From: Leptospirillum sp.
GTDB lineage: Bacteria > Nitrospirota > Leptospirillia > Leptospirillales > Leptospirillaceae
Assembly: GCA_027315205.1 (NCBI GenBank)
Contig: DAHUYM010000002.1
Span: 62,001-126,000, forward strand
Reading direction: 5' to 3'
DNA length: 64,000 nt
Both the position numbers and the translations under genes were made by a program. The notes under the pieces are model-generated. The model worked only from the letters and a program-made list of their open reading frames with translations. It was not told where the DNA came from and made no database searches. The stretch's first letter is position 1, and each line of letters begins with the position of its first letter. This document shows positions 46,767 through 63,499 of this stretch, piece after piece.

Positions 46767-47621
46767 ATGTCCAGTTCCGGCCTTCCCAGTCCGTTTGATC
46801 TTTCAAAACAGATGCGTAAGCTGGATGCTCTTCCCGTTTTTTCGGCCAGTATCCGGGACGTTCTGAATACGATCGATTCCAGCCAGTCTTCGTTTGAACA
46901 GATCGCCAGCCTGATCCAGAAGGATCCCGCTCTGTCCCTCCATGTTCTCCGGAGCGCCAATTCCCTCCTTTCCACGTTCGAGGGAAAGGTGACCGGGATC
47001 CTTCATGCCGTAAGGATCCTTGGTCTGGTACCGCTTCGCGGTGTGGTCGTTTCCCGGATTCTCCTCGACAAAGCTCGCCGCCATCCCGGAGTCTCCGAAC
47101 TGTGGTACCACAGCCAGGCCGTTTCGGTCATATGCACGGTCATCGGACGATACATGAACTCCCGGAAACTGGAGGAGCTACAGACCATCGGGCTGTTGCA
47201 CGACATCGGAAAATTTTTCTTCTACGACGAATATTCGGAATATTATGAGCAGGAGTTCCAATTGGGCGACTCGGGACGAGCCGAACCGGACTGGTTGAGG
47301 GAACGGGACGTTTTCGGGATCGACCATTGCCTCCTTGGTGACCGTGTTGTCCGAAACTTCCGGCTCCCGCGGATCCTTTTCGAACCCATCCTTCTCCACC
47401 ACGATCCGTCGAAATCCGTGGAATTTCCGGAACTGGCCCACACGTGCAGCGTGGCCGACGGAATCGCGCGCGCGTTCGGTTCGGGCGTTCCCGAATACGT
47501 GTTCGTCGAACCGGAGTTCACGGGCAGCCTCGATGTCCTGGGGCTCGGAACGAACGACCTCAGAAACCTCTTGCCGGAGGTGCTCCATCGGTTGTCCGCC
47601 GTCGAGATCCTGTTGCCATGA
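46767..47621 (+). CDS. HDOD-domain protein (first of three)
   Basis: A 284-residue HDOD signalling protein. DALPVFSASIRDVLNTID and IQKDPALSLHVLRSANS open the domain. TIGLLHDIGKFFFYDEYS keeps an HD pair that many HDOD proteins have lost, and LLHHDPSKS follows. It is probably a cytosolic output or adaptor domain. It is coupled to the second copy by ATGA. Confidence 0.85.
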   Translation: MSSSGLPSPFDLSKQMRKLDALPVFSASIRDVLNTIDSSQSSFEQIASLIQKDPALSLHVLRSANSLLSTFEGKVTGILHAVRILGLVPLRGVVVSRILLDKARRHPGVSELWYHSQAVSVICTVIGRYMNSRKLEELQTIGLLHDIGKFFFYDEYSEYYEQEFQLGDSGRAEPDWLRERDVFGIDHCLLGDRVVRNFRLPRILFEPILLHHDPSKSVEFPELAHTCSVADGIARAFGSGVPEYVFVEPEFTGSLDVLGLGTNDLRNLLPEVLHRLSAVEILLP

Positions 47622-48469
47622 CCTCCTCTCGCCATGCGGGCGATTCCGGTGGCTTCCGGAAAGAAGAGTTCCGCCTCAAGGTGGAGGACCTGACACTCCT
47701 TCCGGCGATCTCCCCGCACGTCCTGGAATTCATGACGAGCCTGGACGATCCTGCTGCGAACATCGCCGGGATCTCGGGACGGATCGAGAAGGATCCGGGC
47801 TTGTCCGCACGCATTCTTAAAGTGGCGAATTCCCCGCTGTACGCTTCGAGGGGTCATGTGACCCGGGTGATTGACGCCCTTGTGCGGGTCGGGTTGATGA
47901 CCGCCAAAGCCATCATCATGACGGCATCCTTTTTCGACTCGATCCGGGACCATCCCGCCGTCGCGAGCCTGTGGAAGCATTCCATGGCGGTGTCTTTCGG
48001 CGCCCGGAAGATCGGTGAAGCGACGGGCATGACCCGTCTGGACGAACTCTATCTCGCGGGACTCCTGCACGACATCGGGAAAGTCGTCTATCCGATGTTC
48101 GCCAGGGAGAGTTTCGATGCCTATCTCGAGGACGACAGCACGGATCCCGGACCGGTCAGGGAGTCCCGGTTGTTTGGAATGGACCATGCTGAATTGGGAA
48201 CGCGCCTCGCCGAAGCCTGGAACTTTCCGCCGGTCATTTATCATGCGATCCGGTACCACCATGCCCCGGTCGATGCCCCCGAGCCTTCCAGGGACGTCGT
48301 GAATGCCGTCGGGCTTGCCGACCGGATCTCCTCGGCCTACGGGATGGGGCATTCCGAAGATCCCTTCGTCGAGGGCGGTATCCGGCCACTGATCGAAAAT
48401 CTTGGCGTATCGTCCTCCATCGATGGCATACTTGCAAGCGTTCTCGGGTACGGGGACAATATCGAATAA
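47618..48469 (+). CDS. HDOD-domain protein (second of three)
   Basis: A 283-residue paralog of its neighbours: LKVEDLTLLPAISPHVLEF, IEKDPGLSARILKVANSPLY, and AGLLHDIGKVVYPMFA with the HD pair retained. It is more similar to the third copy than to the first (LTLLPAISP versus LSLLPAISP; shared KVANSP). The start is 47618, four bases inside the previous stop; the longer open frame to 47444 overlaps the first HDOD gene and is not chosen. Confidence 0.86.
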   Translation: MTSSRHAGDSGGFRKEEFRLKVEDLTLLPAISPHVLEFMTSLDDPAANIAGISGRIEKDPGLSARILKVANSPLYASRGHVTRVIDALVRVGLMTAKAIIMTASFFDSIRDHPAVASLWKHSMAVSFGARKIGEATGMTRLDELYLAGLLHDIGKVVYPMFARESFDAYLEDDSTDPGPVRESRLFGMDHAELGTRLAEAWNFPPVIYHAIRYHHAPVDAPEPSRDVVNAVGLADRISSAYGMGHSEDPFVEGGIRPLIENLGVSSSIDGILASVLGYGDNIE

Positions 48470-48544
48470 TGCGTTTTCGAAAGACCCCGGCAACCGCGCG
48501 GGGAACGAACGGGACCCCCTGAGGGAGAAAGGAAGCGGGAGCGG

Positions 48545-49390
48545 ATGTACTCGCGTGATGAATTCTTTCTGCTCATAGAGGACCTTTCCCTGCTTCCGGC
48601 GATTTCTCCGTCGTGCCGCAGTGCGTTCGACAAGATGGAGGACCCGGAAGCGTCCCTGATCGGAATCGGCCACCTGATCGAAGAAGACCCCGGTTTGGCA
48701 TCCCGGCTGATCAAGGTCGCCAATTCCCCGTTTTATCCGTATTCCGGAAAGGTCGGGAGCGTCCGGGAAGCCCTGGTCCGCCTGGGCCTGGAAACGACCA
48801 GGGGCGTCATCCTGACGACGAGCCTGTTCGACCGGATCCGGGGGGAGGCCGGGGTATACGCCCTCTGGCAACACAGCCTGGCGGTATCCATGATCTCCCG
48901 TAACATCGCGGGACACCTCCGCATGCCGTATCCCGACGAAGTCGCCCTTGCCGGACTTCTCCACGATATAGGAAAGATCCCCTACTTCATGCACGACGCA
49001 TCCGAGATGCACCGGTCCATTTCGGACGTGGACCCCGGCCGTCCGGACTATAAGAGGGAGAAGGAGGCGTTCGGGATGGACCATATGGAAATCGGAGAGC
49101 ACCTCACGATTTCCTGGCGTTTCCCGTCCATCGTCTGCGCCCCGATCCGGTGGCACCACAATCCGGCGAAGAGCCCGGAAGCCGACCGGACGGTCGTCCG
49201 TATCGTGGCACTGGGAGATCTGATCGCATCCGCCTATGGCCTCGGGCATCCGGAATTTCCGTTCGTCGACGGGGACATCCTCCAGCTCACGGAAGAGCTG
49301 AATCTACTGGGTGCGGAAGTGACGTCGCTCCTGACGGATTTCCTGTACGACCGGGACTTGATCGTTCAGAGATCTCACGATGTTTTCTGA
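48545..49390 (+). CDS. HDOD-domain protein (third of three)
   Basis: A 281-residue HDOD protein (LIEDLSLLPAISPSC, DPGLASRLIKVANSPFY, AGLLHDIGKIPYFMHDA). The 75-base gap after copy two is purine-rich and ends in GGGAGCGG before the ATG. It probably arose with copy two by tandem duplication. It overlaps queG by 11 bases. Confidence 0.86.
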   Translation: MYSRDEFFLLIEDLSLLPAISPSCRSAFDKMEDPEASLIGIGHLIEEDPGLASRLIKVANSPFYPYSGKVGSVREALVRLGLETTRGVILTTSLFDRIRGEAGVYALWQHSLAVSMISRNIAGHLRMPYPDEVALAGLLHDIGKIPYFMHDASEMHRSISDVDPGRPDYKREKEAFGMDHMEIGEHLTISWRFPSIVCAPIRWHHNPAKSPEADRTVVRIVALGDLIASAYGLGHPEFPFVDGDILQLTEELNLLGAEVTSLLTDFLYDRDLIVQRSHDVF

Positions 49391-50357
49391 GCCCGGGGAC
49401 ACGGGTGGCGCCCAGGCCGAAAGGGCCATGGCCATCGTTCGGGAATGCTTGGGCGAATTTCCTTTTGCCGCTCTTCTGTCCGATCCTCCTCCCCGGCCCG
49501 AATATGCCGAATATCTCGAATGGCTTTCGCGCGGGGACCAGGGGGAAATGGAATACATGGCCCGCACGAAAGACCGCCGCCGATCCCTCGGGGACGGGTA
49601 TCCGGGCTACCGCTCCGTCCTGATGGCCCTTCTGCCGTCCCCGCCTGTCCGGACAGGAGAACACGGGGCATTGTCCTTCCGGGTGGCCCGGTATTCCACG
49701 GGACCCGACTACCACCGGGTTTTCGAGGAGCGTTTCCGGCGCGTGAGGAATAGGATCCGGAGATACCTCGATCCCGGGGACCGCCCCCTCATCAAACCGG
49801 ATCACGGATCCCTGATGGAGAAATCCCTGGCTGCCGAAGCGGGACTTGGTCAGGTGGGCAAGAATACCCTCCTTATCAATCCCGTGCTGGGTTCTCAATT
49901 CACGATCGGATCCATGATTTTCAAAACGCCTCTTGCCACGGTCAAGGGACCGTTCGAAAATTTCTCCCCCTGCGGTTCCTGCCGGCGGTGTCTCGACGCC
50001 TGTCCCACCGGGGCCTTTCGCGGACCTTACCGTCTCAAGGCGGACCACTGTCTTTCGTATCTTACGATCGAACGGCCGGATTCCCCCACGGTCCCGATAC
50101 GGCTCCGATCCGGCGGAAACTGGCTCTTCGGGTGCGATGTCTGCCAGGATGTCTGTCCGTACAACGCTCCTTCCCGTACGAAGGGAGGACCTGCGGATCC
50201 TCCCATGGTTGTCAATTCCCGTTCGGATCTTATAGAGTTAGCCGAACAAAACCCCGCGCTGCGACGCGTCGGACCCGACCATCTTTGGAAACGGCTCGGG
50301 GAGATCCGGGAAGCCTTCGATCCTCGTTTCGGGACCGTCACAACTGGGAGTGTGTAG
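49380..50357 (+). CDS. queG: Epoxyqueuosine reductase QueG
   Basis: A 325-residue iron-sulfur cobalamin enzyme performing the last step of queuosine synthesis in tRNA. It has EYLEWLSRGDQGEMEYM near the N-terminus, AEAGLGQVGKNTLLI, and the ferredoxin-like clusters CGSCRRCLDACPTGAF and CDVCQDVCPYN. It overlaps the third HDOD gene and is followed by the flagellar regulator, so it may be an operon bystander. Confidence 0.94.
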   Translation: MFSEPGDTGGAQAERAMAIVRECLGEFPFAALLSDPPPRPEYAEYLEWLSRGDQGEMEYMARTKDRRRSLGDGYPGYRSVLMALLPSPPVRTGEHGALSFRVARYSTGPDYHRVFEERFRRVRNRIRRYLDPGDRPLIKPDHGSLMEKSLAAEAGLGQVGKNTLLINPVLGSQFTIGSMIFKTPLATVKGPFENFSPCGSCRRCLDACPTGAFRGPYRLKADHCLSYLTIERPDSPTVPIRLRSGGNWLFGCDVCQDVCPYNAPSRTKGGPADPPMVVNSRSDLIELAEQNPALRRVGPDHLWKRLGEIREAFDPRFGTVTTGSV

Positions 50358-50358
50358 C

Positions 50359-51378
50359 GTGTCGACTGGGTTCATCGGAAAATCCCCGTGCGTTCTCCGT
50401 TTGCTGGATCTTGTCGAACGCGTGTCCCGAACGGAATCCACCCTCCTGATCGTGGGCGAGAGCGGGACGGGAAAGGAAAAGATCGCCCGGATGATTCACG
50501 AAAAGAGTCCCCGGTCCCGATTCCCGTTCATTCCGGTCAATTGCGGGGCGATCCCGGAAGGACTGATCGAAAGCGAGCTTTTCGGCCATGAGAAAGGCGC
50601 CTTCACCGGGGCGGTGAACCAGCGTTCCGGGCGTTTCGAACTGGCAGACGGAGGCACACTTTTCTTAGACGAGATCGGAGAGCTTCCCCTGAACCTGCAG
50701 GTGAAGCTTTTGCGCGTTCTCCAGGAAAAAGTCTACGAGCGTGTGGGGGGAAGCCAGCCGAGAAAAGCCAATATCCGCATTCTGGCCGCGACCCACCGCG
50801 ACCTCGAAAAAATGGTCCGTGACGGCGAGTTCCGGGAGGACCTGTTTTACCGGCTATCCGTCATTCCCGTCGAAATCCCTCCCCTGCGCGAGCGGGTCGA
50901 AGACATCCCCCTCCTGATCGAATACTTCGTGAAGCGATGGGTCGACGAGGACCGGGGGGATTCCGTATCCTTTTCCGACGGATCGAAGGAGGTCCTGCTC
51001 CGCTACCGCTGGCCGGGAAACATCCGGGAACTCGAGAATCTGGTCGAACGATACCTGGTCCTGAAGGCCGGCGAAGAAGTCGCGAGGGAAGACCTTCCCG
51101 AAAAAGTCCTTTCCGGTGTCCCGATCCCTGACACCCCCCCCTTAACGGAGACCCCCGGCCCGATCGTCCCCGTCACGCCGGGTATCGAGATTCCCCTGAA
51201 CGGGGACGGTCTCGATCTTCCCAGGATCCTCCTGGATCTCGAAAAGGAGCTGATCGAAAAAGCGCTGGACCGGTTTGGAGGAAACAAAACCAGGGCCTCG
51301 GAATACCTGGGCATCAATCGGACGACGCTCATCGAAAAGCTGAAACGGTTCGGATCCCGCGCCGAAGTTGAGGAATAG
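50359..51378 (+). CDS. FleQ/FlrA-like sigma-54 activator lacking the N-terminal domain
   Basis: A 339-residue enhancer-binding protein. It begins almost directly at the AAA+ domain (VGESGTGKE Walker [17 protein letters not shown] with an intact GAFTGA loop, [14 protein letters not shown] Walker B) and ends in a Fis-type HTH ([14 protein letters not shown]) that closely resembles the FleQ/FlrA HTH (RTTLVEKMRKYG). The FleQ receiver-like domain and the LFRS c-di-GMP motif that precedes the AAA+ core in FleQ are absent. GTG at 50359 has GGGAG eight bases upstream. It is likely the flagellar master regulator. Confidence 0.82.
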
Positions 51379-51415: not shown

Positions 51416-51435
51416 GATGTCACAACCCTGACATC
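51416..51435. promoter_or_regulatory. FleQ-box-like palindrome GTCA-N6-TGAC
   Basis: GATGTCA-CAACCC-TGACATC: perfect seven-base arms. The core GTCA-N6-TGAC has the same geometry as the published Pseudomonas FleQ site. It lies about 80 bases upstream of a sigma-54 promoter and directly after the FleQ-like gene. Confidence 0.6.
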
Positions 51436-51509
51436 TCTCGTGTCCCCCGCATCCCATGGACCCCTTTTCCGCCCATAGACATCGAACATGGTCGCCATTT
51501 TGCACACTC

Positions 51510-51524
51510 TGGCAAAGGGTTTGC
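51510..51524 (+). promoter_or_regulatory. Sigma-54 promoter of the TPR-flrB-flrC unit
   Basis: TGGCAAAGGGTTTGC: -24 GG (51511-51512) and -12 GC (51523-51524) separated by exactly ten bases, with TGGCA and TTGC matching consensus. The predicted start is near 51536, giving a leader of about 90 bases. Confidence 0.8.
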
Positions 51525-51625
51525 GTATTCCTTTTTCCGAAGGAGACTATAATGTTCGGTAAAAGGGATTCGGGGGAATCGGACGAAATCGGAAACGGAC
51601 ATACCGGTTTTTTTCGGGAGGACGG

Positions 51626-53866
51626 ATGAGGATCGTTGTTCGGTCGCAGACGAACCGGAATCGTGCCCGATCTCTTTTTTTCACAATCGCCCTCCCGGCC
51701 ATGCTTTCCCTTTTTGTCGTTTTCGGGACGGCACGATCCGAGGAAGGTCCCCCGCACATCGATCTTCCTGAGGCATCCCAGCCGCACCTTCCCCACCTGA
51801 AACGACCCGAACTCCATCCGGGCGACCAGCTGATCGGCGAGGATCAGTTGATGTACCGGAAAGCCGAGGCTCTGTTCGACAAGGGCGAATGGAATGCGGC
51901 AGAGAAAGATCTGCAGGGCCTGATCGAAACCCACCCCCAGTCGGTCTTCGTGGGCAAGGCCTATCTTCTGATCGGCCGCATCGCCGAACGCCGGGCCAAG
52001 AAAGAAAGCGGATCCGGCCGCGATGCGAGGAATCGGCTGTACCGGAGAGCGATCCGACTTTACTGGAAAGCGCATCTCGCCCCTCCGGACGGGTGGGATC
52101 AGGGAGAATCGTTCTACCGGATGGGCCGGCTTATGTTGGTGAAGATGCATTTCGATCCCGAGGCCAAAGGGTACCTGAATCTCGGCATCATCGAAGCTCC
52201 CGAGGGGCCCTATTCATATGAAAGCCGGGTCCTGATCGCGGAAATCCTCCGGCGTGAAGGCCATCTGGAAAAGGCCCGTCAAGTAATTGACCATGTGGAA
52301 GGTCGGGTGAGGCTCGAACCGAACCTCCCCGCGACGCGTCTTCTTCCGGTTCTTTACGAAAAGGCCCGGATCGCCCTGGAACAGAATGATATTCCGGAAG
52401 TGGGACGGATGCTTTCTGAGGCTTTGGCGGCCGACGGGACCTACCCGTATTCCCATCCTTCCCTGTTCTTCCTCCTGGGTCGTTACGCGGAAAGAGTCGG
52501 ACACACCCGCCGGGCGTTTTCCCTGTTCCGGAACTTCGTCCGTTTCGATCCGGCGAGCCCGGACATTCCCGAGGCCGGCTACCGGTTGGCCATCCTGGCG
52601 GGACGGATGGGCCGTTCCAGAAGCATGCGGGGTAGGCTCGTGGAGCTGTACCACGACTATCCCGACTCCGATTGGGGAATCCGCGCGAGGCTCGAGATTC
52701 TAAAAGAACGGGATGAGAAGCCTCTGGAAATCGCGGTGCCGACCCCTCCGCATCAGAAGAGCATCCTCGACCACCGGGTCGAGGAACTGGAGCGGATCGA
52801 CTTCAGGAACGGGTCGCAAACGACGAAAGTCCTTGCTTTTTCCCTCATGGCCCCCCTCCTGGCGCATCGGGAGCAATGGCCGGTGGCTCTCCGGAAACTG
52901 AATCGACTGTCCATCGGGACCGACCCTTTCTCGCGGCCGGGACTTCGTCTTTCGAATCTCGAGAAGAGCCTCGTCTACGGATGGATCCTTAAAGAGAGCG
53001 GAGCAGGTCATGACGGAGCCGTTCGGAAAATCGCCCGGGACTATGGCTATGCCCTGTCTCCGGCGCTGACCGATCCCGCACCGGTTCCGTTCGAACGTTT
53101 CGAGTTTCCGAAGGCGGCCCGGGTTTTTGACAGGATCGGCCGGGCCGAACAGAAGAAGGGTCGATTCTTCGAAGCCGGCCTCTGGTTTCGAAAAGCCCTC
53201 CGGGTGGCTTCATTGAAAGATAAACCCGAAGTCCTCGGGGACCTTTTCGACCTGTCGCTCGCCTCCAGGGATCCTTTGGAAGCCTATCGAACGGGAGAGA
53301 CTCTTCTGGCAGTCCTTCCCGCCGATCCGGTCGAAAGGCCGGCATGGCTGGGCAGAATGGCCGGCCTGGCGAGGAGGATGGGGATGTCCGGGTCGGAGGA
53401 GGGATATCTCGAGGAACGCCTCAGGGAGTTCCCCGAAGACCCGACATCCGGAAGGAGCGCGTACCGGATTTTCACCATCGAACGGGAACGGGGGCATTTC
53501 AGGCGGGCTCGCGCCATGGCGCTCAGGTCCAGAGCTTTCCTCGACGACTCGGGCAATCCGACCGACCGGAAAGCCCTGGGAGACCTTCTGTATGCATGGG
53601 GTCAGATGGAGCAGGAGATCCACCATCCGGCGGCGGCATACCGGGCCTGGTCGGATTTCGTGAAATTCGCACCGGAGGATTCCAGGGCCGGGTGGGCTCA
53701 ATACCAGCTGGGAAAGATCGCTGAAACGATGGGTCGCTCCGACGACGCCTATCAATGGTTCCGTCGGGCGTCCCTGGCCAAAGGGCCCGCTCCGCTTTCA
53801 GACGTGGCGAGACAAAAGGCCGATGCCATAAAGCTCAGGCAGGAGGCGCAGAATCGTGGACTCTGA
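51626..53866 (+). CDS. Exported TPR protein of the flagellar regulon
   Basis: A 746-residue protein with a signal sequence (LFFTIALPAMLSLFVVFG) and TPR-like helical pairs along most of its length, for example LMYRKAEALFDKGEWNAAEKDL, FFLLGRYAERVGHTRRAFSL and WAQYQLGKIAETMGRSDDAY (each cited in part). No enzymatic motif is seen. It is probably a periplasmic scaffold. Its own sigma-54 promoter and the direct overlap with flrB place it in the flagellar cascade. Confidence 0.75.
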   Translation: MRIVVRSQTNRNRARSLFFTIALPAMLSLFVVFGTARSEEGPPHIDLPEASQPHLPHLKRPELHPGDQLIGEDQLMYRKAEALFDKGEWNAAEKDLQGLIETHPQSVFVGKAYLLIGRIAERRAKKESGSGRDARNRLYRRAIRLYWKAHLAPPDGWDQGESFYRMGRLMLVKMHFDPEAKGYLNLGIIEAPEGPYSYESRVLIAEILRREGHLEKARQVIDHVEGRVRLEPNLPATRLLPVLYEKARIALEQNDIPEVGRMLSEALAADGTYPYSHPSLFFLLGRYAERVGHTRRAFSLFRNFVRFDPASPDIPEAGYRLAILAGRMGRSRSMRGRLVELYHDYPDSDWGIRARLEILKERDEKPLEIAVPTPPHQKSILDHRVEELERIDFRNGSQTTKVLAFSLMAPLLAHREQWPVALRKLNRLSIGTDPFSRPGLRLSNLEKSLVYGWILKESGAGHDGAVRKIARDYGYALSPALTDPAPVPFERFEFPKAARVFDRIGRAEQKKGRFFEAGLWFRKALRVASLKDKPEVLGDLFDLSLASRDPLEAYRTGETLLAVLPADPVERPAWLGRMAGLARRMGMSGSEEGYLEERLREFPEDPTSGRSAYRIFTIERERGHFRRARAMALRSRAFLDDSGNPTDRKALGDLLYAWGQMEQEIHHPAAAYRAWSDFVKFAPEDSRAGWAQYQLGKIAETMGRSDDAYQWFRRASLAKGPAPLSDVARQKADAIKLRQEAQNRGL

Positions 53867-55109
53867 TATGTCAGCAAAAGCCGGGAACGGAAGGGCGACC
53901 GACCGCGAAGACGTCGAAGTTCTTTCTCGGGCCTTCCAGTCTTTCCGGGAGGCGTCCGAAAAGCTGTCCAGCTATTACCAGGGACTGGAGGCCCGGATAT
54001 CGGAGCTCTCCAGGACGATCCGCGAAAAGGACCAGGCCCTCGACAGCCAGGGCCAGTTCCTGGACGCTCTCCTGAAGAGCCTGTCCACCGGAGTTCTCGT
54101 TTTGACGTCCGGGGGACGGATCCTCTGGACAAACCCCCTGGTCGGCCAATGGGTCGGGGAGAACGATTCCGATGTCCTGGCCGTTCTCGAATCGTGGGGG
54201 GTCTGGCCGAATCCCCAGGGAGACGAGCCCCGTCCCGTGACATGGAAGGGCCGGTCCCTGATCGTGACTCATTCGGAGGTCCGCGACCGGGACAGGAGGC
54301 CGCTCGGGCACGTCCTGATCCTGACCGACCGGACGCGTGTCCGGGAGATGGAAGAGGAAGTGGCCCGGGACCGGCGTCTGAAGGAAATGGGGGAGATGGT
54401 GGCGACGATCGCCCATGAACTCCGGAATCCTCTGGGGAGCCTTGAGATTTTTGCGTCCCTTGCGGAACGGGAAGCGCCCGGCGAAAGCCGGCTGGCGGAA
54501 TGGGTCGGTTATATGCGCGTGCAGGTATCCAGGCTGGACCGTTTGATCGGGAATCTTCTCTATTACACCCGGCCTCCCGAAATCGTGATGTCCACGTTTT
54601 CCCTGTCCGGGTTCCTGAAAAAGGCGGAGGCCGATTTCGCGAGGATCCCTGCGATGCAGTCCCGGGCTGGGGCGGGGTCCCTTTCGTGGCGGGTCGAGAT
54701 CCCCGAAGACCGGGTGGTGACCGCGGACGAAGGACTCCTGTACCACGCCCTCTTCAATCTCGCGGTCAACGCATTCCAGGCGCTCGAAAGCCATGCCGGG
54801 GGCGAGGTGGTATTGACGGCCCGGCCCGGTTCGGCGGGCGAGCTCCTGTTCCTGATGCGCGACAACGGTCCCGGCGTCCCGGAGGAGGTCAGGGATCGGA
54901 TCGTCGACCCCTTCTTCACGACGAAAGCGAAAGGAACGGGACTGGGTTTGGCGATCGTTCACAACATCGCAGAAGCCCACGGGGGATCGCTGTCGTTTCG
55001 TTCGACCCCGGGCAGCACCGAGTTCAGTCTCTCTGTCCCGGAGAACGATGCTTCCCGGACGGAAATGTCCGATCCCGGCAAGGATGCGGTGGAGGTACGG
55101 GGTGCGTAA
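53856..55109 (+). CDS. flrB: FlrB-type cytosolic sensor histidine kinase
   Basis: A 417-residue kinase without transmembrane helices. An N-terminal coiled coil (about residues 20-75) leads to a PAS-like domain (LLKSLSTGVLVLTSGG), an H-box (MVATIAHELRNPLGSLEIFA), an N-box (NLAVNAFQAL) and G boxes (DNGPGVP, GTGLGLAIV). It is the partner of FlrC. GTG at 53856 overlaps the previous gene and has AGGAGG nine bases before. Confidence 0.88.
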   Translation: MDSDMSAKAGNGRATDREDVEVLSRAFQSFREASEKLSSYYQGLEARISELSRTIREKDQALDSQGQFLDALLKSLSTGVLVLTSGGRILWTNPLVGQWVGENDSDVLAVLESWGVWPNPQGDEPRPVTWKGRSLIVTHSEVRDRDRRPLGHVLILTDRTRVREMEEEVARDRRLKEMGEMVATIAHELRNPLGSLEIFASLAEREAPGESRLAEWVGYMRVQVSRLDRLIGNLLYYTRPPEIVMSTFSLSGFLKKAEADFARIPAMQSRAGAGSLSWRVEIPEDRVVTADEGLLYHALFNLAVNAFQALESHAGGEVVLTARPGSAGELLFLMRDNGPGVPEEVRDRIVDPFFTTKAKGTGLGLAIVHNIAEAHGGSLSFRSTPGSTEFSLSVPENDASRTEMSDPGKDAVEVRGA

Positions 55110-56514
55110 CGACAGACCGAACGTTCTCGTCGTCGACGACGAACACGAAATGGCATTGGCCCTGAAGGAGTCACTCGCCCAGGACGGATTCTCGGTCGAC
55201 CTCGCCCAGAACGGGCAGGAGGCGTTGAGCCGGGTACAAAAGGGAGGGCTCTACCATTGGGTGATCAGCGACCTTCGTATGCCCGAAATGGACGGGTGGT
55301 CGCTGCTTTCGTCGCTTCGCCGGATCAGTCCCGAGACGCGGGTGATCCTCATGACCGCATTCGGAACGGTCCCCCAGGCGGTCGACGCGATGCGGATGGG
55401 CGCCGTCGATTTCCTGATGAAGCCGTTTTCGGCCGAAGAGCTCAAGAAACGTCTTGTCCGTCCGGAGGAACACCGGACGCTTTCGGCGGGACGCCCGAAC
55501 TGGGAAAAGATTTCCCGTCCGATCCTGACCCGCGACCCGGCCCTGATGGGGATACTGAAGATGCTCGAGGGGGTTTCCCAGACGCCGGCCACCATCATGA
55601 TCGAAGGAGAAAGCGGAACGGGCAAGGAATTGATGGCCCGATTCATCCATGAACGATCCCCCAGGGCCCACAAGCCTTTCGTCGCCGTCAACTGCGCGGC
55701 TCTCCCGGAAACCCTTCTGGAGTCGGAACTGTTCGGTTACGAAAAGGGCGCATTCTCGGGTGCGGTGGCCCGAAAGATCGGAAAATTCGAACTGGCCCAC
55801 ACCGGAACGCTCCTCCTGGACGAAGTCGGCGAGATGAACCTGGCGCTTCAGGCGAAACTCCTGAGAGTGATCCAGGAAAGGGAAGTGGACCGCGTCGGGG
55901 GAACGCGCCCGATCCCGGTCGATCTCAGGATCGTCGCGACGACCAACCGGAACATGAAGGAAATGGTACGGAACTCGCAGTTCCGCGAAGATCTCTACTA
56001 CCGTCTGCGGGTGTTTCCGGTGACCGTCCCAAGCTTGAGGAAACGACCCGGGGACATCGCCCTTCTGGCGTCCCATTTTCTGGAACGCTTCCGGCGGGAA
56101 CACGCCAAGGTGGGTCATTTGACGCAGGGAGCGATGGATCTTCTGTCTCGCGCTTCATTCCCGGGCAATGTCCGGGAACTGGAAAACGTCATTGTCCAGG
56201 CCTCTTTTTTGGCAGGCGGGGGGGATATCCGCCCGGAGCATCTTTCCGGTGTCCTGGAAGGCGAGTCTTTCCCCGACGGCACGACCCCGGCCTCCGTCGG
56301 CTCCGGAGAAGACCTGCTGGCGGGAGGGGTGCGTCTGCGTCCCGGTCAATCGGTCTGGGAAGTCGAACGCGAACTGATCCGGATGACGCTCGATTCCTGC
56401 GGTGGAAACCGGACACAGGCGGCACGCCTATTGGGGATCAGTGTCCGGACGCTCAGGAACAAGCTCCACGAGTACGGAATGAACGGGAGCGAATCGGATG
56501 AACCCAGGGAGTAG
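55102..56514 (+). CDS. flrC: FlrC-type sigma-54 response regulator
   Basis: A 470-residue regulator: receiver (VLVVDDE, phospho-Asp in VISDLRMPEMDG, conserved MKPF), AAA+ ([12 protein letters not shown]), and Fis-type HTH (GNRTQAARLLGISVRTLRNKL). The sigma-54 contact loop reads GAFSGA instead of GAFTGA, a conservative change. GTG at 55102 has GGAGG seven bases upstream and overlaps flrB. It probably activates the sigma-54 promoter before flgB. Confidence 0.92.
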   Translation: MRNDRPNVLVVDDEHEMALALKESLAQDGFSVDLAQNGQEALSRVQKGGLYHWVISDLRMPEMDGWSLLSSLRRISPETRVILMTAFGTVPQAVDAMRMGAVDFLMKPFSAEELKKRLVRPEEHRTLSAGRPNWEKISRPILTRDPALMGILKMLEGVSQTPATIMIEGESGTGKELMARFIHERSPRAHKPFVAVNCAALPETLLESELFGYEKGAFSGAVARKIGKFELAHTGTLLLDEVGEMNLALQAKLLRVIQEREVDRVGGTRPIPVDLRIVATTNRNMKEMVRNSQFREDLYYRLRVFPVTVPSLRKRPGDIALLASHFLERFRREHAKVGHLTQGAMDLLSRASFPGNVRELENVIVQASFLAGGGDIRPEHLSGVLEGESFPDGTTPASVGSGEDLLAGGVRLRPGQSVWEVERELIRMTLDSCGGNRTQAARLLGISVRTLRNKLHEYGMNGSESDEPRE

Positions 56515-56584
56515 GGGAAATTTTTTCCCGTTCCCGGGACCGGGTTTTCGGGTCTTTTCGTTGAAAGATGCTTTCGTCCTGATC

Positions 56585-56599
56585 TGGAACGTTATTTGC
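56585..56599 (+). promoter_or_regulatory. Sigma-54 promoter of the flgB operon
   Basis: TGGAACGTTATTTGC: GG (56586-56587), ten bases, GC (56598-56599); ACG and TTGC also match consensus. It lies 35 bases before the flgB start codon. Confidence 0.85.
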
Positions 56600-56633
56600 T
56601 AAACATGGACCGGAAGGTTGAGGGAGGAATCAG

Positions 56634-57011
56634 ATGGCGCACATGCACCTGTTCGACCGGACCACGGACTTATTGAAGGTGACCCTTGATTTGCGCAGTC
56701 GCCGGCACATGCTCCTGGTCTCGAACGTCGCCAACCAGGATACTCCGGGATATCAGGCCCGGGACCTGTCCTTCAAGAACCAGCTCGCGCGGGCGCTCGG
56801 AAGGCCGGACCGGTCCGCTCTCGATTCGACACGGGGATCCCTCGTGGTCAATTCCGACGAGACCGTCGGAAACGATCTGAATACGGTCAATATCGAGATG
56901 GAGATGGAGAAACTCGCTTCCAACACCGGAAACTACAACGCGGCGGCATCGATGGTGGCCTGGAAATACCGCATGATTGGGGATGCGATGCGCGGCGGCG
57001 AAGGGAGGTAG
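56634..57011 (+). CDS. flgB: Flagellar proximal rod protein FlgB
   Basis: A 125-residue rod subunit. The rod signature around MLLVSNVANQDTPGYQARDL (N-terminal) and the C-terminal YNAAASMVAWKYRMIGDA are typical. First gene of the basal-body operon, under the sigma-54 promoter just upstream. Confidence 0.96.
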   Translation: MAHMHLFDRTTDLLKVTLDLRSRRHMLLVSNVANQDTPGYQARDLSFKNQLARALGRPDRSALDSTRGSLVVNSDETVGNDLNTVNIEMEMEKLASNTGNYNAAASMVAWKYRMIGDAMRGGEGR

Positions 57012-62522: not shown

Positions 62523-62981
62523 ATGCGTAGCCGACTTGAACCGGTTCTGAAGTACAGGGAAGAGCTCCTGAGACAGGCCGAAGTCGCGATGGAACGGTCA
62601 CGGTCCCATCTCGAAGCGGCCCGGAAGGCGTTGAGGGATCTCGAACAGCATCAATCTTCGGGGTTGGACTCCCTCGAGGCCGAGACCGAGGTTCCCGTCG
62701 GGTGGAGGGCGATCTGCTACAGCTTCCTGACGTCCGTCGCCCTGCGCGTGAGTGACGGGCGCGACCGGATGGACGAAGCCCGGAAGACCTTCGAGGCCCG
62801 CAGGTGCGAATGGGAAGCGGCGGCCCGGGAAATGAACAAGATCTTTCTTCTGGTCGAAGCGGAAACCCGCAATCTGAGAAAAGTTCACCAGGCCCTCGAG
62901 GAACGCCGGCTGGACGATGCCGAAACGGTCCGATGGATTCGTTCGCGGCCGGAGGCCGGGTTTCAGAGGAGAAATCCGTGA
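62523..62981 (+). CDS. fliJ: Flagellar export chaperone FliJ
   Basis: A 152-residue coiled-coil protein (LEPVLKYREELLRQAEVAME, the FliJ opening) rich in arginine and glutamate along its whole length. The position after fliI supports the call. Its stop overlaps the next GTG start. Confidence 0.9.
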   Translation: MRSRLEPVLKYREELLRQAEVAMERSRSHLEAARKALRDLEQHQSSGLDSLEAETEVPVGWRAICYSFLTSVALRVSDGRDRMDEARKTFEARRCEWEAAAREMNKIFLLVEAETRNLRKVHQALEERRLDDAETVRWIRSRPEAGFQRRNP

Positions 62982-63499
62982 CCCGTCAGGGAGGTACCTT
63001 CCGGACGGCGGTCTTTACCGGCATGGTCGGGTTCGCGCTCGTGTCCGGTACGCTCGCGACGGCATTCGGGGAGGGCTCGTCAGTCATGCAGGGAAGCTCT
63101 CCCGGTGCGGCAGGAACCCCGGGTTCGGATCAGGCGAAACTTGACCGGATACGGACCGAAGAGAAGAAATTGCTGGAAATGAGGCAGGATCTTCTCCGGC
63201 AGATCGACCAGAACCAGAAGCTCGAAAGGCAGATCTCCAAGGACCGGGTGTTCTCCGATAAGCTCAGATCCAAGGAAATGCAGCAGTTGATACAGATTTA
63301 CGAGAAGATGGCCCCACGGACGGCGGCTGCCCAGATCAACATGATGACGGAAGATCTGGCATTGGTCTTGATTTCCGGCATGAATCCACGGAAGGCATCC
63401 CGGATCATGCGGTATGTGGACCCCAAAATCGCCGTCCGGATTTCCTCGGACCTGGCCTCCCGGCCGGTCCGGACGAAGGATGCGAAGGGTTCCCCCTAG
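62978..63499 (+). CDS. MotE/MgtE-N-like flagellar protein
   Basis: A 173-residue protein with an N-terminal membrane helix (TGMVGFALVSGTLATAFG), a coiled coil (about residues 50-95) and a C-terminal MgtE-N-like motif (IYEKMAPRTAAAQINMM, ISGMNPRKASRIMRYVDP). This matches MotE, a periplasmic chaperone of MotC-type stators encoded after fliJ in several bacteria. Whether it acts on stators here is inference. GTG start within GTGA, AGGAG upstream. Confidence 0.78.
   Translation: MTRQGGTFRTAVFTGMVGFALVSGTLATAFGEGSSVMQGSSPGAAGTPGSDQAKLDRIRTEEKKLLEMRQDLLRQIDQNQKLERQISKDRVFSDKLRSKEMQQLIQIYEKMAPRTAAAQINMMTEDLALVLISGMNPRKASRIMRYVDPKIAVRISSDLASRPVRTKDAKGSP

Follow-up and report, generated by a model that had tools for sequence, protein, structure and literature searches.

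How is the operon that encodes a TPR protein, FlrB, and FlrC turned on in Leptospirillum sp., a relative of the acid-mine Leptospirillum? In the 64-kb stretch of DNA that we analyzed (the window), this operon lies downstream of a gene for a FleQ-like activator, and the gap between them (from the end of the activator gene at 51378 to the start of the TPR gene at 51626) contains two short elements. The first is a palindrome at 51416–51435, with 7-bp arms GATGTCA (51416–51422) and TGACATC (51429–51435) around the spacer CAACCC. Its core, GTCA-N6-TGAC, is at 51419–51432, and the longer form TGTCA-N6-TGACA is at 51418–51433 (no strand is assigned). The second is a predicted sigma-54 promoter (-24/-12 element) on the + strand, TGGCAAAGGGTTTGC at 51510–51524, with GG at 51511–51512 and GC at 51523–51524; 74 bases separate the end of the palindrome (51435) from its TGG. 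An earlier note on this DNA had proposed an operator like the FleQ box, with perfect seven-base arms, about 75 bases upstream of a GG-N10-GC promoter and just 3' of a FleQ-like gene. This arrangement is present exactly where it was placed (the activator gene stops at 51378 and the palindrome begins at 51416). Judging from sequence comparisons, the palindrome is very probably the docking site of a shortened FleQ-like master regulator and would let it activate flagellar genes of the next tier.

TGGCAAAGGGTTTGC has the GG-N10-GC and TGGCA...TTGC features of sigma-54 promoters and predicts a transcription start near 51536. The earlier proposal depended on sigma-54, and rpoN is found in the genome, in one copy. 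We also noticed a possible 25-codon leader ORF (51552–51629, + strand) that begins about 16 nt past the predicted start, has a good ribosome site (AAGGAG in front), and overlaps the TPR start (ATGA). No similar leader was found in the intergenic sequences of two related genomes, G001 and G004, which are described below.

The activator (342 amino acids; 50350–51378, + strand) has an AAA+ domain (PF00158, Sigma54_activat, E = 3.9e-72) with the Walker A motif GESGTGKE and GAFTGA, followed by AAA_lid_14 and a Fis-type HTH (HTH_8). Its best matches in the PDB are FleQ structures (8p53/5exx), and the alignment extends through the HTH (E = 8e-100). In the HTH, NRTTLIEK of the window protein aligns with RRTTLVEK of FleQ (the full FleQ stretch compared is RRTTLVEKMRKYG). 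The RTTLxEK recognition helix is shared by FleQ and all of the orthologs compared, and by none of the nine other activators of the genome. Pfam finds neither the FleQ domain (PF06490) nor a receiver domain (PF00072), so we call the protein FleQ-like and not a full FleQ. The earlier note's "FleQ-like gene" thus holds for the nearest solved relative and its matching recognition helix but not for the FleQ and receiver domains. In FleQ, R144 of the linker between the REC and AAA+ domains contacts the nucleotide site (PMC10723142); judging from junctions read by eye, its counterpart in the window protein appears to be T6, and the orthologs do not appear to have arginine there either. The genome also contains flhF, fliA, and a candidate flhG/fleN. 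The candidate is a MinD-like ORF between flhF and fliA (L136:11296-12204). Because its only NCBIfam matches are to MinD and are below the cut-off, we inferred its identity as FlhG from its position. Three ORFs in a row at 46767–49390, ahead of queG and the activator, resemble each other and look as if they encode HDOD-domain proteins.

The activator would use the palindrome at 51416–51435 as an enhancer site. A dimer of its Fis-type HTH would bind GTCA-N6-TGAC (the HTH dimer is thought to be the binding form of FleQ; PMC10723142), and its AAA+ domain, with Walker A and GAFTGA, would reach by looping to the sigma-54 polymerase at 51510–51524 and open the promoter. The transcript from about 51536 would carry the genes for the kinase FlrB and the regulator FlrC behind that for the PflA-like TPR protein. 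A consensus for the FleQ box, GTCaNTAAAtTGAC, is quoted in PMC6120874, but the ChIP-seq data of that study, from two pseudomonads, did not bear out a general consensus for FleQ. The CAACCC spacer of the window's box is GC-rich, while FleQ boxes have an AT-rich center, and this counts against a FleQ-type reading.

Could a common palindrome and a common GG-N10-GC have come together by chance? In the window, GTCA-N6-TGAC occurs twice (0.76 expected) and TGGC-N7-TTGC once (1.04 expected). Both counts are close to what is expected, so the elements are not convincing when taken singly, and we dropped any claim of significance from the palindrome alone. TGTCA-N6-TGACA occurs once in the window (0.01 expected) and once in the whole 2.0-Mb genome. 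The other GTCA-N6-TGAC of the window (52278–52291, inside the TPR gene) is nearer to the Pseudomonas consensus, but we treated it as chance because no sigma-54 site is nearby and the matching stretches of G001 and G004 do not contain it. We scanned the genome by a pattern search and by fetching stretches, counting sigma-54 sites with a score of at least 6 and up to 300 nt downstream of a box. Such sites were found in 4 of the 72 flanks of 36 GTCA-N6-TGAC sites, whereas 300 shuffles gave 0.88 on average and never more than 3, so the scan that the earlier note called for shows enrichment of the pairs. Three of the four pairs precede flagellar genes (TPR-flrBC, fliL, and flgF). The fourth is not obviously flagellar, which counts against the proposal. 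We count the site as more than chance because the box and the sigma-54 site are conserved at the orthologous position. Given this conservation in three genera, the enrichment of pairs in the genome, and their recurrence before flagellar genes across the phylum, a chance pairing is hardly credible. Separately, GTCAATAATTTGAC (L142 near 1491; G000:C11:196290) is embedded in a larger inverted repeat, TTTGGCAA...TTGCCAAA, and a sigma-54-like site lies at a distance of 86 nt.

G001 and G004 belong to different genera of the family, and their activators are 76% and 72% identical to the window's activator. In both, TGTCATATTCATGACA follows the activator's stop codon at the same place as the window's box and is followed by a sigma-54 site (TGGCAAACGGTTTGC in G001, TGGCACAGGTGTTGC in G004). 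From the 16-bp palindrome (TGTCA-N6-TGACA) to TGG, the gap is 76 nt in the window, 65 nt in G001, and 53 nt in G004. G001, G004, and G009 share the order queG - activator - TPR - kinase - regulator. In three genomes of genus g4, the sigma-54 site at the TPR promoter is kept (CGGCATGAATATTGC) without the box, and in genus g3, the orthologous stretch has neither the box nor a sigma-54 site. The box is missing in g3 and g4 although the HTH of the activator is retained, which counts against our proposal. So of the earlier claim that site geometry is preserved, the box itself and its upstream position stand, but the spacing varies (53–76 nt in the family and 41–52 nt elsewhere in the phylum) and two further genera of the family have lost the box at this promoter. 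In a part of g3 (L015, L017, and L020-L022), the activator gene is followed not by the TPR gene but by one for a different membrane protein, which resembles a CHASE3-type sensor.

We also considered that the inverted repeat might form an RNA hairpin, such as a terminator or stabilizer at the 3' end of the activator mRNA, instead of an operator. It begins 37 nt past the stop codon and folds well in the window's genome (z = -3.8). However, no run of Ts follows it, the orthologous stretch of G001 folds barely better than shuffled sequences do (z = -1.0), and the bases are conserved, not just the pairing. Furthermore, the same letters precede fliL and flgF, where there is no activator gene upstream. 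A hairpin is very unlikely to be the explanation.

The activator would also act on fliL and, outside g3, on flgF in the genera of the family that we examined. The final codons of flgE contain the fliL box, which all 18 family genomes examined have. The third bases that the box requires (Arg CGT, Val/Ile xTT, and Asp GAC) are invariant in 17 of 17 aligned genomes, while only 4.5% of comparable flgE codons are invariant and the wobble base inside the box's spacer varies; the aligned genomes are related and many are from one genus, so the statistic is weaker than it looks, but the contrast stands. For flgF, 6 of 18 genomes have the box (all six examined outside g3), and the twelve g3 genomes lack it. 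The fliL box is CGTCA...TGACA and the flgF box is AGTCA...TGACT, so only GTCA-N6-TGAC is common to these and the window's box.

Downstream of the TPR gene are genes for a histidine kinase similar to FlrB (53856–55109, + strand; HisKA and HATPase_c) and for a response regulator similar to FlrC (55048–56514, + strand; receiver, AAA+, and HTH_8), which probably starts at a GTG near 55102. These are followed by flgB (56634–57011, + strand; TIGR01396 above the cut-off), which would be the first gene of the next tier, and by flgC, fliE, and fliF. Upstream of flgB, we found a second candidate operator, GGAAATTTTTTCC (56516–56528, no strand assigned), of the class GGMA-N5-TKCC, and a sigma-54 site, TGGAACGTTATTTGCT (56585–56600, + strand), with similar sites in G001, G004, and G009. 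GGMA-N5-TKCC is 54–122 nt upstream of the sigma-54 site in 4 of 4 flgB promoters and 18 of 18 flgF promoters (versus 0.3 of 18 shuffled flgF promoters), but in 0 of 6 TPR promoters and 0 of 15 fliL promoters. Because we found this motif by eye in the same promoters (flgF upstream regions L186-L204), these counts are a description and not a test, apart from the finding that the TPR and fliL promoters lack it. The flrBC genes of Vibrio are driven by FlrA, and FlrBC in turn drives flgB and flgF (PMC7064773), so GGMA-N5-TKCC is a natural candidate for the site of the FlrC-like regulator. Its presence at flgB and flgF but not at the TPR gene or fliL is as expected for a second, FlrC-like tier, which FlrC would turn on probably via these sites.

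The palindrome at the TPR promoter might instead be the site of another activator, either FlrC (by autoregulation) or the genome's NifA-like protein. FlrC-like genes are just downstream wherever the box precedes TPR-flrBC, but the promoters expected for FlrC (flgB and flgF) share a different palindrome, which is absent at the TPR promoter. As for NifA, its classical motif is TGT-N10-ACA. TGTCA-N6-TGACA also reads this way, the window's copy and its two orthologs fit, and the genome has an activator whose HTH looks NifA-like (L205). But the fliL and flgF boxes do not fit, and since only one of the three flagellar boxes matches TGT-N10-ACA, we rejected a NifA upstream activator site. Also, the FleQ-type recognition helix is missing from the other activators compared. 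Overall, another activator is improbable at this site. The cascade that the earlier note predicted, from an FlrA-like protein via TPR/FlrB/FlrC to the flgB operon, gains support at the sequence level from the conserved operator and promoter, rpoN, FleQ as the activator's nearest solved relative with a matching recognition helix, and the shared gene order.

Do other Nitrospirota have this arrangement? We searched 296 genomes from the phylum for GTCA-N6-TGAC followed after 40–70 nt by TGGC-N8-TGC. By hand count, there were 124 matching places, versus 32 with a reversed control pattern. We fetched 34 of the 124, which were picked for AT-rich boxes or short gaps and are not a random sample: 15 have flagellar genes of the fliL/fliM/fliN/fliP type downstream, another 12 have the activator and/or the TPR protein and kinase as context, and 7 appear unrelated. 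(FliL, FliM, and TPR assignments were confirmed with Pfam on examples.) At 10 of the 12 places with the activator/TPR context, the upstream gene is an ortholog of the window's activator, with 48–54% identity over the shared part. All five tested activator orthologs from other families have a receiver domain (PF00072), and one has a sub-threshold match to PF06490. Other families of the phylum show the order activator, box, sigma-54 site, and TPR/kinase genes, and still others have the box and a sigma-54 site ahead of fliL/fliM. At these flagellar loci outside the window's family, box and TGG are 41–52 nt apart. In G024, from a further family, a box overlaps the start of the activator itself (L071 2493-2508) and another box is ahead of fliA (L071 3898-3913), as expected if the activator is autoregulated.

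The TPR protein (746 amino acids; 51626–53866, + strand; Pfam TPR) has a signal-like helix at its N-terminus and is predicted to be a periplasmic, PflA-like superhelix. Its AlphaFold model is a long TPR superhelix (mean pLDDT 81.6, pTM 0.46), and the top Foldseek match is chain K of 9hmf (9hmf_K), from the flagellar periplasmic scaffold of Campylobacter jejuni (E = 4e-13, TM-score 0.31). Judging from its length, this chain is presumably PflA. A sequence search for kinship to PflA found generic TPR proteins only, and homologs of the TPR protein in another family have sub-threshold AMIN matches at the N-terminus. The AMIN domain is also found in PflA, and single TPR proteins near flagellar genes have been proposed as PflA homologs (PMC11870540). 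We consider the kinship with PflA to be suggestive only. In several families of Nitrospirota, a TPR gene comes first in the operon with flrB. Downstream of a fliJ-like gene, the ORF at 62978–63499 looks similar to MotE/FlgY by eye (MgtE N-terminal-like); in the E-ring, PflA usually has MotE/FlgY as its partner.

Taken together, we consider it likely that a FleQ/FlrA-like activator, via the box and the sigma-54 promoter, turns on TPR-FlrB-FlrC and hence flgB and flgF, and also fliL. The sites, the gene order, their conservation, the domain content, and the kinship of the HTH can be read directly from the genomes. From these we infer which regulator binds which palindrome, that it activates, that transcription starts near 51536, and the order of the tiers. 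More tentatively, we speculate that the master activator of Leptospirillaceae shed its receiver and does without the linker arginine of FleQ, so that flagellar onset would depend on nothing but the amount of this activator and perhaps FlhG. Its regulon would be in the course of a stepwise dismantling: the fliL box is kept in all genomes examined, the flgF box was lost in one genus, and the TPR-flrBC box in two. The promoter that we studied would then drive a PflA-like motor scaffold along with its checkpoint kinase, FlrB. The losses of the box within the family are a natural series for studying how a regulon is rewired. The proposal also gives a two-operator code that can be scanned for, with GTCA-N6-TGAC for the upper tier and GGMA-N5-TKCC for the rod/hook tier.

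How does this compare with known systems? Like PflA of C. jejuni (a periplasmic motor spoke, 9hmf), the TPR protein would be an exported TPR superhelix encoded in a flagellar operon, and the chain that Foldseek ranks first, aligned along almost the entire protein, is presumably PflA. Unlike PflA, the window protein has no detected AMIN domain; no sequence similarity to PflA was detected, and the TM-score is only 0.31.

The activator resembles P. aeruginosa FleQ in that the AAA+ and HTH domains align end to end, with the RTTLxEK helix and a GTCA-N6-TGAC box (GTCaNTAAAtTGAC for FleQ). As in the FleQ system, there are sigma-54 flagellar promoters, including one for the next-tier two-component system, and a gene for a MinD-like partner in the flagellar cluster. 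Unlike FleQ, it lacks the N-terminal receiver/FleQ domain, R144 appears unmatched (in the alignment read by eye), and the spacer of the box is GC-rich.

As in V. cholerae, where FlrA drives flrBC, a master activator is predicted here to drive an FlrB/FlrC pair, which in turn would drive flgB and flgF. For V. cholerae flrBC, a GTCA-N6-TGGC within the FlrA region has been pointed out (PMC4641369). Unlike in V. cholerae, here the operon with FlrBC starts with the TPR gene, the palindrome is full, the regulator is shorter, and outside of genus g3, flgF carries the master box too.

A precedent for a one-component regulator is DVU2894 of Desulfovibrio vulgaris, a flagellar relative of FleQ/FlrA without the N-terminal domain, for which Kazakov et al. 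(2015) predicted the motif yGTCA-N6-TGACr (PMC4641369). As here, this is the same palindrome and a prediction from comparative genomics. Unlike here, that motif is upstream of the regulator's own gene (predicted autoregulation); in Leptospirillum sp. it is downstream, before TPR-flrBC, as well as before fliL and flgF. We found no earlier report of a FleQ-box/sigma-54/FlrBC hierarchy in Nitrospirota in the literature searched, and our analysis places a predicted one in this phylum. The motif had been predicted before, for a FleQ/FlrA relative of Desulfovibrio that has no receiver; what we add is the extension of this known biology to a phylum that has been little studied. Our results are an argument for an old FleQ operator that Pseudomonas, Vibrio, Desulfovibrio, and Nitrospirota have in common.
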